Below are positions 2 through 6,880 of a stretch of 6,882 nt of DNA, one piece after another. Within the stretch, counting starts at the first letter, position 1, and each line of letters begins with the position of its first letter. Position numbers and translations under genes: made by a program. Under the pieces are notes generated by a model. The model saw only the letters and a list, made by a program, of their open reading frames with translations. It was not told the origin of the DNA and did no database searches. The stretch comes from Elusimicrobiota bacterium (lineage in GTDB: Bacteria > CG03 > SLGR01 > PWQF01), in NCBI GenBank assembly GCA_003557485.1, contig PWOI01000056.1, forward strand, positions 1 through 6,882, read 5' to 3'.

Positions 2-175
2 CTTTCCCTCTTTAACAGCCTTGCGTATTTTTTCGGGAAAATTGTCCATATCGGGCATTTTTCTTACAACAGCTATTATAGGCCGGCCAAGGAATTCTTC
101 ATCTGCAAGCATCCCTTTAATAAGATTTATGCCTATAAACCCTGTACCTCCCGTAACAAGGACAGGATGATCAGC
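2..175 (-). other. Extended SDR / NAD-dependent epimerase-like Rossmann domain, N-terminal part only
   Basis: Residues 2236-2293. The strand VLVTGGTGFIG (glycine-rich TGxxGxxG motif, Thr2243 to Gly2250) is followed by an INLIKGML helix and a second strand ending IIAVVRK. This is the dinucleotide-binding start of an extended short-chain dehydrogenase. The basic residue after the second strand (Arg in VVRK), instead of an acidic one, is more in keeping with NADP(H), as in thioester/fatty-acyl reductase-like members, than with NAD-using sugar epimerases. The catalytic YxxxK lies beyond the window, so the reaction cannot be assigned. Confidence 0.82.
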
Positions 176-3100
176 CGGGTATTCCGTATTACGCGCCGGA
201 ATCTCTTCAGCAATACCGGCAGAGGCCTTTTTGATGTGAGCTATCAGTTCCTTTCTTGCCTCCGGTGTATTAACATTCTCTAATCCGCCGATAAAATCTT
301 TAAGCAAAGTTTTCTTCTCAAAAAGTTTTGCACCCAGAGACTCCACATCAGACGAAGTTACTATTCTTCCTGTTTCTTCCCTGTCTTTCTTCCAACCTGC
401 AAAGTTTTCCGCCGCTGCCGCAAACGAAACCCTGGAACGAAACCAATTAACCCAGAACCTGTAATCACTGCGGGCTGTTAATCTTCCCATATATCTGTCA
501 AAATAAAACGGCTGCATAAGTTCTTCAATTTTTTTATAGATATATTGTGTATCTTTAAGTCTTTTGTTTTTATCTAAAATACCTCTTAATGGCTCCGCCT
601 GCATATATTTTTTCATTTCAGCCGGCCATTTATTCGGATCAAAGCTTCTTATTTCATCCAGATTGCCTTCATTATGCAAAAGAGCAATTTCAACGCTTAC
701 TTCAGGATAATAATACCCAATGATCATTTTATAGAGCATAGGTATAGTTCCTACCTGTCCCGTATCAACAAGAGAAACTTTTTTCTTTTCTTTTACCCCC
801 AGTTCGTCAAGTTCTTCTTTTATCTCTGCAACCAGGTTCCTGAACTCCACATCAGCCGACCCCTTTGAAACACTCTCATCCATTCTCAGATTGAAATCCT
901 CCTTGAGAAACTCAAAAAAATATTCTTCCTGGTTTTCAGAATGGTTTAAAATCTCTTCTATAGTTTCAACGTATTCATTATAATTTTTGAAATTGGCGCG
1001 TGCCCTGTACAAAATGTCTGCATTGGCGCCGGGCTTCCCTGTGTTTCTTGAAAGAGCATCATCAATATAATAAAGCCAGTTCGCGTCCCGGGCAAAATAT
1101 ATGCGGAAAGAATCCCGAGGTGCCTGTTCGGCAATAAAGAGTGCTAAAAGCGACCCTATTGCCAATTTTTCAGGATCTGAAATACCTTTAATCCTTGTAT
1201 CAGCAAATCCGGGATTAAAGGAAAAGAGGTTTTTCCAATCCATGGAATCACGCGGAACAGCTGTATCAACTATATCTCTGAAAAACTTGTCCATTATTCT
1301 TCTTAATCTTCTATTTCTTATGCCATACAAACCCAGCACGAGATGATCGAAATTAGCAGCAAGGGCGTATGCTAAATCTGCTTCCTCTTCTCCTTCGCTT
1401 TCCCTGATAAAACTCTCGCCGTAAACAAGAAAAAGCAGTGCAATCCTGACGGCTTCTTTCAGCCCCTCAATATCTTCCGGAGCGGATCTGGTTATATTTT
1501 CGTAAAAAATTCTCTCGGATGGATGGCCAAACTCTCTCACCATTTTTCTTAATGCTTCAGGATTCGGAACTACATCAATTTTTTTCTCGGGAAAAGTTAA
1601 AGCGGAGGTGTAATCCCCGAAATCGCTCCAGACCGCCAGCAGACTGTCAACGAACGCGGCGCCGGCATATGTGAAACCTATGACTGGAATAAGGGGAGAA
1701 GAAAAAAAGAACGGGCTTATAAACATAAAAGTGAACGCTGCAATTATAACTCCCGAATCAAACATATACGCAAACGGTGAAGCCCTCAGACCGGCATGTC
1801 CATCAACAAAGTTTTTCCAGTTTATCTTAGCTTCATACCCCTTAAGTCTTACTTCGGCCCAGGCTAGGAAAACATGAGCCGGAGTAAAACCTAAAACAAA
1901 AAGAGGAACCCTTGAAATCCAGTCCGCAGTTTTCACCCAGCCTTCTTCAAGCCGAATTAGTATTGAGGTTGCAAAATTTCTTACGGTATCGGATTCCGGA
2001 GCAAAATCCCCGGTTCCCGTAAAAATTGAAATTGCCGCATCAAAGATACTGAAAGACAGAAGGGCCGACCCTGTCACCATTACCGCCAGGGGAAGTAAAA
2101 AAAGCGAAGACAAGAACAATGCCCCTAAGGAAACTCCTAAAAGCAATGACCCGGTAAGAAAAGTTCCGGCAACCCCAGAATATCTGATTAAAGGAGAAGC
2201 TCTTGCAGAAATATTTCCTAAAATCAGATTTTTCCATTTCAACTCTATTTTTTGACCGGAAAACCTTGCCGCTGCCCAGTGTGAAAGTTCGTGTAACACC
2301 GTAACAGGCGCTATCAGAAAAAATGGAACGGCATAACTCCAGTCACCAGAACTTATTCGCGAGACAAAATAATTGGCCAGTGACGATTTTAGTTCTTCTA
2401 TAGGTTCCCTTTGCCGGGAAAACCCTTCTACTGCCACCTGAATTCCCCGTTTTGTCAAATGCCAGCTAACCCACTCGGCCGGTTCGCTGGATAAAACTGC
2501 CCCGGTTCCCTCTGTATCTAAAAAGAGAGGTTTTCCAAAATTTTCCATATGGCGCATAAAATGCTTATTTAAATCTTTTTCTTTGATGTAATCGGGTATT
2601 AATAAAAACTCTTCCGTGAGATATCCCTCAGTTTCGCGAATGGCTCTTCCTATATCAAAAGAAGCTATCCCGTTTATATCCTCAAACTCATTATAGAGAA
2701 GCATAACTTCAACTTCGGGAGCGCCTTCCCCGTAAAAATGTTCCATTACGAGCTTGTAAAAAATCGGTATTGTTCCGTAGCGCCCGGTATCAATAAGATA
2801 TAAACTTTCTTTATCATATATGTTCAGTTCATCCAGTTCTTTTTTTATTTGCTTGATAAAGCTGCTAAATTGCGCGTCGCTTTTTATTTTTTCATCAAAA
2901 TAACTCCTGAGATAACCATAAAAAACCTCTTTGCCTTCTTTTCCGCTCCTTCTCATACTGTCTATCGTATCTCTTATGTGATGCGACATTTCCAAGTAAT
3001 ACGGAAAATTATCCCGGCTTCTGAATACTATGTCAGCGTTAGCCCCCTCTTCCCCTCTTAACTTTGCCATCCCATCGTGAAGCAGATGAAGCCAGCCGGC

Positions 3101-6100
3101 ATCCCGGGCAAAATATATGCAGTAGTTTTCATTAGATACCATTTCATCAAAGAACATCGTTAATAAAGAGATTATTGAAAAAACTATCCCCGGATCCTCT
3201 TGATGCTCTGTTCTACCGGCGCTTAACTCAGGATTGTAGCCGTATATGGATTTCCAGAAATCACCCCTTTCCACCATAAATTCACGTGCTGTTCTTTTAA
3301 AAAAATCATTGATTTCAGGACTTATTTTCGGCGCTTTTTTTATTGCCATTAGCAGTCGGTCCATATTGGAGGCAAGCGCAGCGGAGATTTCCGCAACTTC
3401 GGTTCCTTCTCTTTCAATGACTTCTTCCCGGCTGAAGAAAATTGAAAGTAAAGCCAACCTGACAATTTCTTCCAATGCATCTTGATGTTCCTTCCCCATC
3501 CTTTCAATGGCGCTGTAGAACCCCTCTTCATCCAGTTTTCCTCTTGTATACATAAGGGTTTTTATCAGGTCATTTCTCTTTTTTGTATCTCTAATTAAAT
3601 ATTTAAATCTGAACAATTTATTCTCTTCGTGGTCTTCAGCTAAAGATTTATGGTAATCCTCAGAACTTTTTCCCTCATTTTCTTTCTTTGCAAGGTACTC
3701 ATATTCATTTATTTCATGGCGGGCAAGAATTTTTAGCAATTCTTTTGTTTCCTCCGGAAGAGGTTCATCAGAATAAGCGGAAAACCCCCTTACCTTTAGG
3801 GCATTAAAAACCATCTCGTGGACTATCAACCTCAGTTTTCCCGTTTTTGTATCGGTTTCTACCGTGACTAGGCCGTAAATATCGTCACTCTGAAAAACCA
3901 GTCCGGGATCCTGAACACTTACCATAACATCCAGGCCGCTCTCTTGCTTGAGGACTTCTGCCATTTCCCTTATAAATAAAGGCATATCTGAAACATTTCT
4001 TAAATGTTTTGAATCGGCGCCCTTTAGCAGGGAAACCAGGGCGTTTTCGGCAGAAACCGAAAGTGAAGTGTCCAGTACGGGCAGAAAAGCCGGATCTGCG
4101 CCTGCTTCCATAAGGCTTTTGAGCGCATTTGTTATTAATAACGGCAGGTTTTCCCCGAACGCCGGAGCGTTTTTTTGCTCAAATCTTTTAAGCCTTCCCA
4201 CTGCTTCTTTGTACCATCCGGATTGCGCCACAATTTCCCGGACTTGAGCACTGTTTGCTGCAAGAAAAAGAAGAGCCTGGTCAAGAAATAAAGCTTTCTC
4301 ATTTAGAACCTCGCCTGTGCGGGGGCATAGAGCATCGGGAGCCGGACCGTCCAGGGATATAGAATCAAATATTTTTTCCAGATTGCGTAAAGCATCAGCA
4401 TCGCCTGTTGTTGCCAAAAGCGCTGCGGCATAGGGTGAAACAACACCGGTTTCATCCAGCCCGTATTCCGAATATCCGCCTTCCGGATTGGTTGCCGGAG
4501 CCCACCCGTATAAGGAATAACCTTTTTCTACTGCCCTATTCCTGGAAAGCTCAACATAATTCCGGTGACTCAACCCCATGGTACCGGGAGCATAATTCTT
4601 TTCGTTCAGAAATATATTTGGGGCCAATTCAACAAACGCGCTCCAATTCCAGCCTTCAGCTACTTTTAACCCGTCCCTTTCAACCCACCTGTAAAACATA
4701 TTTTCCCAGGCTTCTTCGGGAAGCATTCCCTCACCTATAAGGGAAAGAATCACGGTTCTTGCTTCACTGTTTATATTGTCATAGCTGAAATCAAAAACGT
4801 CTCCGGCTCCCCTTTCCCCTGTAGATACTTTTTCCCTGAATCCGGCGCCCATTAATCCGTCCTTCATAAAAACCGAATAGTCCTGGTCTTCAATAAGATT
4901 GGCTGCTGCCTCAGATATTTCCGTTCCCGGGTAGACATCCCTTATCAGGCTGAGGGCAAGGGTAAGCCATCCCGAATCCAGGGAGGAATATTTTACAAAC
5001 CCGTCCTCTATTTCTGTTGAGATTCTGCCGTCTTCTCTTATATTTAAAAACTCGGGAAAAATGTTTCCGTTTTCAGACCTCCTTACACGAGGTGAACCTA
5101 GAACATGCAGAACCCTTTCCATATGAATCCTTGCTTCATCCTGACTTATAAGCTCTTTCCTCTCTGCAACAATAGTTGATAGCAGGTCAAGGGCGACATT
5201 GGTAGCTTTTGTATAATTCATTCCCCATTGCCCGGTATTATCACCTACTACGGAGGTCCCGCGAGCTCTCATAGCTTTCAGCCCGTAATAGAGTTTCCTA
5301 TTATACTCTTCAGCAATATTATCAGATACTTCCTGTACATATTCCATAGGCACCAGTTCCGCGTCTGCCGTAAAAGCAGTAAAAATGGGACTCAGGAAAA
5401 GGCTAAATACGGTAAAATAGGTGAGAACAAAACTGCCGGCACCGATTATGCGCTCTGCCAACCTCCTAGAAACAACCCTTTTAAGCGCTGAAACCTTACT
5501 CTCAAGTACCTCTAACTCCTTCTTCCAGTCTTTCTCTGAAACAAGTGACAATGCATATATTGTTCCGGTTCTTCCAGATATTTCCAGGTAACCCCTGTTT
5601 CCACCATACACATCAGCAAACCCGACATCAACATTTATTATCTTACCCCCGGGAGAAACCCTGACTTTGGCTCCCTCCCTCCTTTGCGGAGAGTGCGCTG
5701 TCACCTGCGGGATCTCAATATCCTCCTCACTTACCAGAAGTTCTCTATAATCAGCCCAAAATATTCCCGGAAGCTTATCTGTATATAAATTACTCCGGGC
5801 TCGGCCAACATAAAAGATACTATCACTAAAATCATTCCTTTTGACAGCGCTCACTAAAATGCTGTTAAAAGATTCTTCCAATTCCTCCACAGTACGTCCT
5901 CTTGAAATATGCGGAAGACCCCCCCCGTGTGTAAATATCCGTCCGCCTGCGGAGTAGGACGCCACAATACGCCCGTCTAATATATCTTTTTTCATATCAT
6001 CTGCTATTTTGAGAAGCTTTTCATTCTTGTTTAATCCGGTTGTTTCGACCAGACCCACAACATCGTCGAATAAAATTTCGTTTGGCTTTCGGCCATCAAA

Positions 6101-6880
6101 AAACTGCTTAACAGCCGGAATATAGATTTCACTTTTCTCATCAACAAGATACTCATACCCTCCATTTAAAACCCAGTTTGCCAGCTGGTCGTAATCACCC
6201 ATCATTCCGCGCAACAAAAACAGCTCGTGGTTTCCAAGAAGCCGGATTACTTTCCCTCCGTGACTTTCCGCCTGCTTTTGGAGTTTTCTTATAAACTCTA
6301 TTGTTTCTGTAAAGAAAGGCCCTCTATCAATCAGGTCTCCCATCTGCACCAGAACAGAACTTCCGCCGGACCAGTTATCATCTTCATCAATTAACCCGGC
6401 ATCACGAAAAGCAACTTTAAATCCGTCAAGTTCACCGTGAATGTCTCCAATTACTAAGTGCCTTGCACCCACACTGCCCGTAAAAAAAACTTCTCTGCCC
6501 TCTTCATCCCTACTGGAAGCGTAACTTCTTACCCATCCCCGCTCAGCGTTCTTTTTTCTTGTTGCAATTACTGTTTCAATACGGCTTTTTATAGACTCTG
6601 CCGTTTCTTTACTGAATATTTTATTTATATACCGTACTGCATCAGTTACAGAATTAAACTCGCCAGGAAGAAAAACCCTTGGTTTTAGTAAAAACTCTCG
6701 ATATATATCGGCGCGCGTATTGTAATCCAGATTAGATTCGCTCATATCAAAAGACCCCATTAATGATACGAGCATTTTATCTATGCCTTCTATCCTTTTC
6801 CTCAAATTCTCAACATCCTGTTTAAAGGCTGATATTATTTTTGACTGGAAGGCGGCATCTTTTATCCCTAATTCTTCAAT
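2..6880 (-). CDS. Giant multi-domain protein, partial at both ends (2293 residues visible)
   Basis: A single minus-strand frame is open across the entire window, with no stop in 2293 codons. Longest competing frames are about 110 codons. At the right edge the preceding codon is cut and ends in TG, so whether it is a start cannot be told; at the left edge one base is left over. The frame carries recognisable motifs from end to end: GDIHG, GDLIDRG and GNHE (PPP phosphatase), a DUF3131/glucoamylase-like domain, two FARDAxW domains, HELSH (M50-like), and TGGTGFIG (extended SDR). It is therefore one gene rather than several fused by chance. The product likely combines phosphatase, glycan hydrolase, membrane protease and NAD(P)-dependent activities, possibly for envelope glycan metabolism (inference). 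Only two cysteines were seen, at residues 852 and 1254. No family of this full architecture is known to me. Confidence 0.93.
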   Translation of the reverse strand, partial: MEELGIKDAAFQSKIISAFKQDVENLRKRIEGIDKMLVSLMGSFDMSESNLDYNTRADIYREFLLKPRVFLPGEFNSVTDAVRYINKIFSKETAESIKSRIETVIATRKKNAERGWVRSYASSRDEEGREVFFTGSVGARHLVIGDIHGELDGFKVAFRDAGLIDEDDNWSGGSSVLVQMGDLIDRGPFFTETIEFIRKLQKQAESHGGKVIRLLGNHELFLLRGMMGDYDQLANWVLNGGYEYLVDEKSEIYIPAVKQFFDGRKPNEILFDDVVGLVETTGLNKNEKLLKIADDMKKDILDGRIVASYSAGGRIFTHGGGLPHISRGRTVEELEESFNSILVSAVKRNDFSDSIFYVGRARSNLYTDKLPGIFWADYRELLVSEEDIEIPQVTAHSPQRREGAKVRVSPGGKIINVDVGFADVYGGNRGYLEISGRTGTIYALSLVSEKDWKKELEVLESKVSALKRVVSRRLAERIIGAGSFVLTYFTVFSLFLSPIFTAFTADAELVPMEYVQEVSDNIAEEYNRKLYYGLKAMRARGTSVVGDNTGQWGMNYTKATNVALDLLSTIVAERKELISQDEARIHMERVLHVLGSPRVRRSENGNIFPEFLNIREDGRISTEIEDGFVKYSSLDSGWLTLALSLIRDVYPGTEISEAAANLIEDQDYSVFMKDGLMGAGFREKVSTGERGAGDVFDFSYDNINSEARTVILSLIGEGMLPEEAWENMFYRWVERDGLKVAEGWNWSAFVELAPNIFLNEKNYAPGTMGLSHRNYVELSRNRAVEKGYSLYGWAPATNPEGGYSEYGLDETGVVSPYAAALLATTGDADALRNLEKIFDSISLDGPAPDALCPRTGEVLNEKALFLDQALLFLAANSAQVREIVAQSGWYKEAVGRLKRFEQKNAPAFGENLPLLITNALKSLMEAGADPAFLPVLDTSLSVSAENALVSLLKGADSKHLRNVSDMPLFIREMAEVLKQESGLDVMVSVQDPGLVFQSDDIYGLVTVETDTKTGKLRLIVHEMVFNALKVRGFSAYSDEPLPEETKELLKILARHEINEYEYLAKKENEGKSSEDYHKSLAEDHEENKLFRFKYLIRDTKKRNDLIKTLMYTRGKLDEEGFYSAIERMGKEHQDALEEIVRLALLSIFFSREEVIEREGTEVAEISAALASNMDRLLMAIKKAPKISPEINDFFKRTAREFMVERGDFWKSIYGYNPELSAGRTEHQEDPGIVFSIISLLTMFFDEMVSNENYCIYFARDAGWLHLLHDGMAKLRGEEGANADIVFRSRDNFPYYLEMSHHIRDTIDSMRRSGKEGKEVFYGYLRSYFDEKIKSDAQFSSFIKQIKKELDELNIYDKESLYLIDTGRYGTIPIFYKLVMEHFYGEGAPEVEVMLLYNEFEDINGIASFDIGRAIRETEGYLTEEFLLIPDYIKEKDLNKHFMRHMENFGKPLFLDTEGTGAVLSSEPAEWVSWHLTKRGIQVAVEGFSRQREPIEELKSSLANYFVSRISSGDWSYAVPFFLIAPVTVLHELSHWAAARFSGQKIELKWKNLILGNISARASPLIRYSGVAGTFLTGSLLLGVSLGALFLSSLFLLPLAVMVTGSALLSFSIFDAAISIFTGTGDFAPESDTVRNFATSILIRLEEGWVKTADWISRVPLFVLGFTPAHVFLAWAEVRLKGYEAKINWKNFVDGHAGLRASPFAYMFDSGVIIAAFTFMFISPFFFSSPLIPVIGFTYAGAAFVDSLLAVWSDFGDYTSALTFPEKKIDVVPNPEALRKMVREFGHPSERIFYENITRSAPEDIEGLKEAVRIALLFLVYGESFIRESEGEEEADLAYALAANFDHLVLGLYGIRNRRLRRIMDKFFRDIVDTAVPRDSMDWKNLFSFNPGFADTRIKGISDPEKLAIGSLLALFIAEQAPRDSFRIYFARDANWLYYIDDALSRNTGKPGANADILYRARANFKNYNEYVETIEEILNHSENQEEYFFEFLKEDFNLRMDESVSKGSADVEFRNLVAEIKEELDELGVKEKKKVSLVDTGQVGTIPMLYKMIIGYYYPEVSVEIALLHNEGNLDEIRSFDPNKWPAEMKKYMQAEPLRGILDKNKRLKDTQYIYKKIEELMQPFYFDRYMGRLTARSDYRFWVNWFRSRVSFAAAAENFAGWKKDREETGRIVTSSDVESLGAKLFEKKTLLKDFIGGLENVNTPEARKELIAHIKKASAGIAEEIPARNTEYPADHPVLVTGGTGFIGINLIKGMLADEEFLGRPIIAVVRKMPDMDNFPEKIRKAVKEGK
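176..397 (-). other. Linker between A2 and the SDR domain
   Basis: Residues 2162-2235 are charged and helical (KKDREETGR, KLFEKKTLLKDF, EARKELIAHIKKA) and finish in a Pro-containing stretch just before the Rossmann fold. No domain recognised. Such a segment is typical of a flexible inter-domain linker or a docking helix. Confidence 0.5.
398..1525 (-). repeat. FARDAxW domain, copy A2 (uncharacterised)
   Basis: Residues about 1786-2161, a diverged paralogue of A1. Shared landmarks: FY (1792-1793), RIALLFL and ALAANFDHLV helices, IYFARDANW (Arg1931, Asp1932, Trp1935), PGANADILYRARANF, EIKEELDELGV, LVDTGQVGTIP (Asp2039 onward), LLHNE and a RFWVNWF end. Differences include a longer stretch between the two signature motifs and a different C-terminal third. 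The signature Arg, Asp, Trp, Asp-Thr-Gly and Gly-Thr-Ile-Pro are kept in both copies, so both are probably functional in whatever the domain does. It follows B2 and comes before the linker to the SDR domain. Confidence 0.7.
1610..1981 (-). repeat. M50-like membrane unit, copy B2 (degenerate, HVFLA in place of HELSH)
   Basis: Residues about 1634-1757 directly follow B1 and align with it by eye. Both copies match without gaps over 34 residues, from the first His (1530 and 1669) through WKN (Trp1549 and Trp1688) to RASP; the His-to-Trp distance is 19 in both. Upstream VPFFLI aligns with VPLFVL. Downstream FDAAISI..GTGDF aligns with VDSLLAV..DFGDY, 11 residues between the two aspartates in each (1614/1625 and 1745/1756). 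HExxH has become HVFLA: the catalytic Glu is Val1670 and the second zinc His is Ala1673. The copy keeps its hydrophobic helices but should not be a working peptidase. Confidence 0.75.
2006..2377 (-). repeat. M50-like membrane metallopeptidase unit, copy B1 (HELSH intact)
   Basis: Residues about 1502-1625. A hydrophobic helix (VPFFLIAPVTVL) runs into HELSHWAAARFSG, where His1530, Glu1531 and His1534 form an HExxH zinc site of the M50/site-2-protease style, the motif being embedded in a membrane helix. Then come WKN (from Trp1549), RASP (1560-1563), two or three hydrophobic helices (about 1568-1620) and an FDAAISIFTGTGD segment with Asp1614 and Asp1625, one of which could be the third zinc ligand. 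M50 enzymes cleave within or near membranes. The unit is small, with about 125 residues, and the usual NPxDG-type motif is not obvious, so activity is likely but not proven. Confidence 0.72.
2420..3538 (-). repeat. FARDAxW domain, copy A1 (uncharacterised)
   Basis: Residues about 1115-1487. Landmarks: FY at 1121-1122, an LALL...LASNMDRLL helix pair, IYFARDAGW (Arg1259, Asp1260, Trp1263), EGANADIVFRSRDNF, and LIDTGRYGTIP (Asp1364 to Pro1372), then LLYNE and an EWVSWHL end. A second copy (A2) is found at 398-1525 with near-identical spacing: from the FY pair to the Arg of RDA is 138 residues here and 139 there, and from that Arg to the Asp of DTG 105 and 108. RDG-type and D.G..GT.Q-type motifs also occur in the C-terminal half of COG5610-like HAD-related proteins of polysaccharide loci; I recall this only loosely, so relation is tentative. 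No activity is assigned. Confidence 0.7.
3539..4225 (-). other. Uncharacterised linker region with HE-rich motifs
   Basis: Residues 886-1114 join the glycan hydrolase to the first FARDAxW domain. I do not recognise a family. The first half is helical (repeated AL.SL patterns near 917-965). A predicted beta-rich part follows (DIYGLVTVETD, GKLRLIVHE with His1021). Then comes a helix with RHEINEYEYL (His1055, Glu1056, Glu1059) and His1077 and His1084 about 20-30 residues later. The HExxE-plus-His pattern hints at a metal-binding helix, as in some gluzincin-like or inactive peptidase folds, but this is weak. The end (KLFRFKYLIRDTKKRN) is very basic. Confidence 0.4.
4226..5326 (-). other. Glucoamylase-like / DUF3131-type glycan hydrolase domain
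   Basis: Residues about 519-885 match, from memory of the family, the (alpha/alpha)6 barrel shared by DUF3131, the glucoamylase-like domain of cyclic beta-1,2-glucan synthases, and GH144/GH162-type glucanases. Landmarks in order: TKATNVALDLLS near 553-564; the segment LDSGWLTLALSLI; the SEAR segment followed by LI.EG..P.E.W; GWNWSAFVELAPNIFL from Gly743; GTMGLSHRNYVE; YGWAPATNPEGGYSEYGLD around Trp793 to Asp809; and VVSPYAAALLA from Val813. The family acts on glucans, often beta-1,2-linked, usually outside the cytoplasm, which agrees with the membrane segment just before it. Conserved acidic residues such as Glu800, Glu805 and Asp809 are present, but I cannot assign the catalytic pair. Substrate is not known. 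Confidence 0.82.
5360..5449 (-). other. Transmembrane segment or internal signal-anchor
   Basis: Residues 478-507 begin IIGAGSFVLTYFTVFSLFL and continue through a hydrophobic stretch to a TADA end. The uncharged core is about 25 residues, preceded by Arg/Lys and followed by acidic residues. This fits an N-in/C-out membrane anchor. The small-residue end (ADA) resembles a signal peptidase site, so internal cleavage is possible but unproven. It separates the phosphatase from the glycan hydrolase domain. Confidence 0.75.
5450..5539 (-). other. Charged helix, possible coiled coil, before the membrane segment
   Basis: Residues about 448-477 (starting SEKDWKKELEVLESK) form a charged amphipathic helix with Leu/Val spacing compatible with a short coiled coil. 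It ends in a basic cluster (KR, RR, ER) just before the membrane segment. By the positive-inside rule this places the N-terminal phosphatase in the cytoplasm and the following domain outside. Confidence 0.55.
5561..6469 (-). other. PPP-family metallophosphoesterase domain, Shewanella-like (SLP) type
   Basis: Residues about 138-440 form a calcineurin-like phosphoesterase. All PPP signature motifs are present in order: GDIHG (145-149), GDLIDRG (181-187), GNHE (216-219), THGGG with His318, and a TAHSPQ motif with His396. The expected metal ligands Asp146, His148, Asp182, Asn217, His318 and His396, plus catalytic His218 and Arg186, are therefore intact. The wording around them (AGLID, NW.GG, VLVQMGDL, KLQKQAE, GGKVI.LLGNHE, and the closing VDVGFADVYGG) fits bacterial Shewanella-like phosphatases better than ApaH or lambda phosphatase. 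The family removes phosphate from phosphoproteins or small substrates using two metal ions. It should be catalytically competent; the substrate is unknown. It lies before the first membrane segment, so it is probably cytoplasmic. Confidence 0.9.
5919..5926 (-). other. Homopolymer tract of eight G in the coding strand
   Basis: Eight consecutive C on the + strand (G in the coding strand) encode the Gly codons right after metal-ligand His318 of the phosphatase. The frame is intact through it in this sequence. Runs of this length are prone to replication or sequencing slippage. Confidence 0.9.
6470..6880 (-). other. N-terminal visible region: helical lead-in, no recognised domain
   Basis: Residues 1-137 are rich in Lys, Glu, Arg and Ile and look mostly helical. 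I see no catalytic motif, signal peptide or membrane segment. Two stretches (about 10-35 and 85-115) have a charged, heptad-like look that could be short coiled coils or the end of an upstream domain. The region leads directly into the phosphatase beta strand (LVIGDIHG) and may simply be its N-terminal extension. Confidence 0.5.

Follow-up and report, generated by a model that had tools for sequence, protein, structure and literature searches.

The window, a DNA stretch of 6,882 b that makes up the entire contig G000:C119, comes from the interior of a giant gene. A single open frame of 2,293 codons runs through it on the minus strand and leaves it at both ends, and both the start and the stop of its gene lie outside the contig. 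The gene probably encodes an exported, envelope-associated multi-enzyme chain from a lineage-specific family of giant genes, the export of this particular chain, its topology, its activity and its target being inferred. Shared ends, a repeat module and recruited metabolic enzymes make up the anatomy of the family, which goes beyond what the preliminary description of this DNA had contained.

The open frame and its domains

The uninterrupted frame of at least 2,293 codons, open at both edges, had been reported in the preliminary description and is borne out. An ORF scan found 68 to 184 stops in each of the five other frames, and the chance of 2,293 codons without a stop is 9e-70 at the base composition of the window. 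Codon-position bias, with position 1 enriched in A/G and in G+C, was detected in nearly every 100-codon block, linkers included. A series of separate genes with internal starts was rejected as a candidate: a Shine-Dalgarno-like stretch accompanied 3 of 51 in-frame ATG codons versus 5 of 77 out-of-frame ones. The single giant chain with an unusual mix of domains is real. Signal peptides and transmembrane (TM) helices were called here and below from hydropathy and by inspection. The features of the window are as follows.

2..6880, minus strand: single open frame of 2,293 codons, running off both contig ends; internal part of a giant gene
5480..6622, minus strand: PPP-type metallophosphatase region, aa 87-467, from motifs and Pfam
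5393..5449, minus strand: predicted TM helix, aa 478-496, after an R/K-rich stretch; hydropathy 1.93
4166..5365, minus strand: glycoamylase/cyclic-glucan-synthase-like domain, aa 506-905
3587..4168, minus strand: family repeat module, aa 905-1098, with AF2 model
3704..3718, minus strand: HEINE motif of the repeat module (HExxE, not HExxH)
2411..3586, minus strand: copy 1 of a duplicated domain of ~390 aa, aa 1099-1490 (IYFARDA ... LIDTGRYGTIP)
1931..2368, minus strand: site-2-protease-like membrane domain, aa 1505-1650, with intact HELSH at aa 1530
1526..1930, minus strand: second site-2-protease-like copy, degenerate (HVFLA in place of HELSH)
371..1573, minus strand: copy 2 of the duplicated domain of ~390 aa, aa 1770-2170
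2..172, minus strand: putative first part of an SDR/NAD(P)-binding domain with VTGGTGFIG, truncated where the contig ends

From the N-terminal side, the order is phosphatase, TM helix, glycoamylase-like domain, module, duplicated domain, two site-2-protease-like copies, duplicated domain and start of the SDR domain. Of the five kinds of domain named previously, the phosphatase is firm, the glycan-hydrolase-like domain and the membrane protease are of moderate confidence, and the SDR domain is represented by its first ~55 residues only, which contain the TGxxGxxG motif and match PF07993 below the cut-off (E 0.0014). That list was also incomplete, as it lacked the two copies of the ~390-aa domain and the repeat module.

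All PPP motifs are present and in order, namely, GDIHG (aa 145), GDLIDRG (181), GNHE (216) and HGG (318), and the Pfam score is 45.6 bits compared with a cut-off of 21.5. The closest solved relative of aa 138-251 is a cold-active protein-tyrosine phosphatase of the PPP type (PDB 2z72, 1v73; E 1.7e-12), which, in contrast to the phosphatase embedded in the giant chain of the window, is a stand-alone protein of ~340 aa. Matches to phage records were confined to this domain.

The glycoamylase-like domain is 44% identical to another giant, L038. Its score for glycoamylase/DUF3131 is 14.3 bits, under the Pfam threshold of 20.3. Profile comparisons with the PDB gave E 1.7e-6 for 8xuj and E 0.006 for cyclic glucan synthase, the latter through similarity to the glycoamylase-like domain of cyclic beta-1,2-glucan synthase (PDB 8rf9); the partner domains of the synthase were not found in the window. 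We assign the domain as glycan-hydrolase-like with moderate confidence, the profile match to the PDB supporting a relationship only.

The HELSH motif lies in a membrane helix, as is characteristic of M50 peptidases, and giant L035 has HEIAH. The best structural match of this domain, obtained with a low-confidence model, is the Methanocaldococcus (M.) jannaschii site-2 protease (PDB 3b4r; Z 6.0, 24% identity over 86 residues), which likewise has HExxH in a membrane domain. Unlike that protease, the window has GDF where the canonical LDG-type second metal motif is expected, a degenerate second copy and a giant chain around both. No Pfam match was obtained for the domain, and a membrane protease is a moderately confident assignment based on HELSH and the model. 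The two copies of the ~390-aa domain are 31% identical, and their structure was poorly modeled (pLDDT 50); their ARDG/DTG-like motifs hint at a possible resemblance to HAD-type hydrolases. Six hydrophobic segments were detected in the window by hydropathy, several TM helices being a feature also of the giants of Omnitrophota.

A family of giant genes with shared ends

An initial search of genome contigs, with the window as the query, gave no match. Two other genera of the same order have pieces homologous to the window, located in open frames of 1009 to 6000 codons. Three known giant starts (L038, L033 and L039) encode a Sec-type signal peptide, MKFLSSIYTKIICWTVSGAMFFTSVINNYAHA, followed by an N-domain of ~430 aa that is 50-68% identical among them. 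Six known giant ends share a tail domain of ~110 aa (E 2e-26 to 2e-40); one of them (L029) belongs to the window's own genome, in which two more frames contain part of the tail domain or a weak match to it. No relatives of the N-domain were found in viral contigs and plasmids. Within 759-2412 of L039, a response-regulator gene separates the stop of one giant from the start of the giant that follows.

The phosphatase region of the window is 43% identical to aa 837-1244 of L033, a giant of genome G003. Because this match is located ~840 residues after the start of the L033 frame, the window is probably close to the front of its gene and would begin about 750-840 codons past the start. Beyond the phosphatase the two chains diverge, and the family is therefore a mosaic.

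The longest frame in the window's own genome is 15.9 kb and is also cut, and that of the window, cut at both ends, is 6.9 kb, the size criterion for giant ORFs of Omnitrophota being longer than 20 kb (Seymour et al. 2023). In G002, a genome of the same order without the module, one 60.7-kb contig (G002:C45) is a single open frame of 20,244 codons. That frame (L076-L079) has cytidylate kinase-, CofD- and ARMT1-like domains, SH3 domains and 31 hydrophobic segments, and it is hardly similar to the window.

For the window, we favor an exported chain that would begin, as in the family members, with a Sec-type signal peptide and the conserved N-domain, would continue with enzymes, membrane segments and ~190-aa modules in variable succession and would finish with the conserved tail domain. 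Export of this chain is suggested by the signal peptides shared by the relatives. Judging by the TM and site-2-protease-like segments, the envelope would be crossed or occupied at several points. The string of enzymes (phosphatase, glycan-active domain and proteases) would work at the cell surface or outside it, with other cells or polymers as probable targets. The target may be prey, a host or a polymer, and a possible role in predation is suggested by publications on comparable giants (PMC10066038, PMC12057145). Export is at odds with the presence on giants of enzymes that need cytosolic cofactors (PEPCK, PK, PPDK, glutamate dehydrogenase and SecA), which fit poorly unless they act in the cytoplasm of another cell or have changed in function. 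In addition, the known starts are on other chains than most of the metabolic enzymes. As these enzymes are hard to reconcile with export, we also considered a chain cut into separate enzymes, a cytosolic chain and a scaffold.

The repeat module

A module of ~190 aa sits between the functional domains of the family giants. Its AF2 model has a pLDDT of 84.8 and a pTM of 0.80. Most copies have the motif HE[ILV][ND]E rather than the HExxH of zincins, and conserved H residues flank the HE on both sides; the H, HE, H arrangement is kept in most copies, and those of L039 and L042 are without the H. The top structural row is selecase (Z 5.4), and Ste24p (4.9), BlaR1 (4.1) and BepA (3.5) are also among the rows; Hsp90 and other unrelated chains score close to them, and Z values under 8 may reflect merely a common arrangement. 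Foldseek gave no match below E 0.001, and library searches yielded no solved relative of the module or of the N-domain. The modeled fold is weakly zincin-like, and the module cannot be classed as a peptidase.

The module is present in 3 of the 16 genomes of the phylum, with each match within a frame of more than 1000 codons. Across 386 genomes it was found in three only, all of this order, three extra weak matches being to unrelated proteins. Public viral contigs contained no relatives.

In five cases, the module begins -5 to 21 residues past the end of a functional domain (M3, MTTB, PGM, GlcN6P isomerase and glycoamylase-like). A rough estimate for this adjacency is P ~6e-6, calculated after the pattern had already been seen and with ~40 domain ends counted by hand. 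Two other gaps between domain and module are 72 and 131 residues. The module may have a role in processing or positioning.

Processing would be central if the giant chain were a polyprotein cut into separate enzymes by its metallopeptidase-like modules. This would account for modules right behind functional domains, and it agrees with the zincin metallopeptidases among the best structural rows, with the retained H, HE and H and with G003, whose only detected PEPCK and PK are giant-borne. We nevertheless consider such cleavage unlikely, given a motif that is HExxE, some copies that lack the H, Z values under 8 that Hsp90 and other unrelated chains come close to, the empty Foldseek result, the two long gaps and the post hoc nature of the adjacency estimate.

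Metabolic enzymes on the giants

In the window's own genome, PGM and GlcN6P isomerase are found on L031, phosphorylase and an HD domain on L013, and a methyltransferase and a transglutaminase-like domain on L030. The giants of the relatives carry PEPCK, PK, PPDK, glutamate dehydrogenase (GDH), MTTB, FBPase, starch synthase, peptidase M3, a cation efflux domain and a second SecA. Most motifs are intact, including GCGKT in PEPCK, ARGDLG in PK, HEFGH in M3 and GEGKT in SecA; in the giant PGMs, the residue after TASHN is K rather than P. PGM, GDH, PPDK and SecA are also encoded by separate genes. For SecA, PK and GDH, the separate genes outscore the giant copies, and the giant PPDK domain has the best score of its family in the phylum. 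G003, in which no PEPCK or PK was found outside the giants, is 88% complete, and several relatives have separate genes for both.

The giant-borne PGMs of three genera form one clade (support 100/100) beside the separate PGM lineage of the order. The giants are therefore old and inherited and predate these genera.

The giant PEPCK of G003 is split over the ends of L067 (G003:C163) and L034 (G003:C93), which match the profile at 1-304 and 310-357. L067 and L034 are therefore probably adjacent parts of a single gene, which would have at least about 3640 codons. L034 also has an Imm5-like immunity-protein domain within its giant frame (aa 96-194), and L042 has MraZ domains (aa 1743-1802). In L069 (G003:C226), a second, divergent SecA with a Walker A and a DEAD-type motif occupies aa 4266-5050 of a 6000-codon frame, the normal SecA of G003 being a separate gene. 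Divergent SecA domains in giants are reportedly described in a preprint by West-Roberts et al.

The enzymes listed above could also be taken to channel central carbon and storage-sugar metabolism in a cytosolic multi-enzyme chain, a metabolon on a string. PEPCK, PK, PPDK, FBPase, PGM, starch synthase, phosphorylase, GlcN6P isomerase and glutamate dehydrogenase on giants and long stretches without predicted TM helices are in keeping with this. Signal peptides on the known starts, separate PGM, GDH and SecA genes in the same genomes and a window that has TM and protease domains instead of a pathway make it a slender chance. It is just as improbable that the recruited domains are dead and serve as the bulk scaffold of a giant surface protein. 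The lower scores of the giant SecA, PK and GDH, the degenerate site-2-protease copy of the window and the K in place of P in the giant PGMs point in that direction, but most catalytic motifs are intact and the giant PPDK domain is the top-scoring one of its family in the phylum.

A more elaborate scheme, which we regard as rather unlikely, is that the giant-gene family, with some members possibly exceeding 20,000 codons, took in housekeeping enzymes successively, each followed by a metallopeptidase-like module that would free or position it, and that the whole would be exported as one chain, at least one species having its sole PEPCK and pyruvate kinase on a giant. If giants do hold the only central enzymes of a cell, this would be a new way to organize metabolism.

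Host genome and lineage

The host genome (G000) is a draft of 2.07 Mb in 212 contigs, 86.6% complete. The tetranucleotide profile of the window correlates with that of the rest of the bin (r = 0.966). Some contigs of 3 to 8 kb in the bin are far off in profile (r down to -0.14), possibly through contamination. In ordinary frames of the genome, TAA, TGA and TAG serve as stops 179, 134 and 38 times, respectively, and recoded stops were ruled out since all three codons are in normal use. A search with the whole window revealed no end overlap with other contigs of the bin. A false long frame caused by misassembly, misbinning or an altered code, for which the fragmented, incomplete draft and its contigs of outlying composition leave some room, is barely credible in view of a window composition that fits the bin, normal stop usage and the same features in three genomes.

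The host belongs to a small candidate phylum, with 16 genomes (16 species) in the set compared. Because Omnitrophota comprise 276 counted species (Seymour et al. 2023, PMC10066038), this phylum is taken not to be Omnitrophota. The placement of the host outside Omnitrophota is deduced from these species counts and from the deposit labels of its relatives, and no 16S gene was found in the G000 bin. Two relatives of the order, both among the three genomes that carry the module, have been deposited as the MAGs Elusimicrobia bacterium T1Sed10_83R1 and Candidatus Sumerlaeota CSSed165cm_109; their isolate names and PMC12057145 suggest that they come from soda-lake sediments. The preliminary description had linked the window to the giant genes of Omnitrophota; the likeness holds (PMC10066038), and membership does not, given a phylum of 16 species and relatives labeled Elusimicrobia or Sumerlaeota.

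Comparison with known giant proteins

The function of giant bacterial proteins has been hard to assign since few of their domains can be named. A family with defined ends, a recurring module and many recognizable enzymes, most of their motifs being intact, makes function, export and processing testable piece by piece.

Among the giants of Omnitrophota, V. archaeovorus has a protein of 39,678 aa with 42 TM helices, and for such many-TM giants a role in predation or symbiosis has been proposed (PMC10066038). The family described here shares with them the great length of its single frames, the presence of several TM helices, a scarcity of annotated domains and poor conservation between species. 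It differs in belonging to another, small phylum and in having many recognizable metabolic enzymes, a shared module and shared start and tail domains. Large or giant genes are also described in PVC-related lineages including Elusimicrobia and CG03 (PMC12057145, which cites the preprint by West-Roberts et al., 10.1101/2023.11.21.568195), where, as here, the lineages concerned have relatives in saline and soda lakes. In the Menyafoubacter protein of ~6000 aa, beta-helix, lyase and Rhs-like domains are present and TM helices are absent (PMC12057145); those three kinds of domain were not found in the window.

Two further contigs of the window's own genome are open from end to end. In these frames, L102 (G000:C103) and L134 (G000:C135), bacterial Ig-like domains are matched at weak to moderate strength, which points to a different kind of large surface protein.
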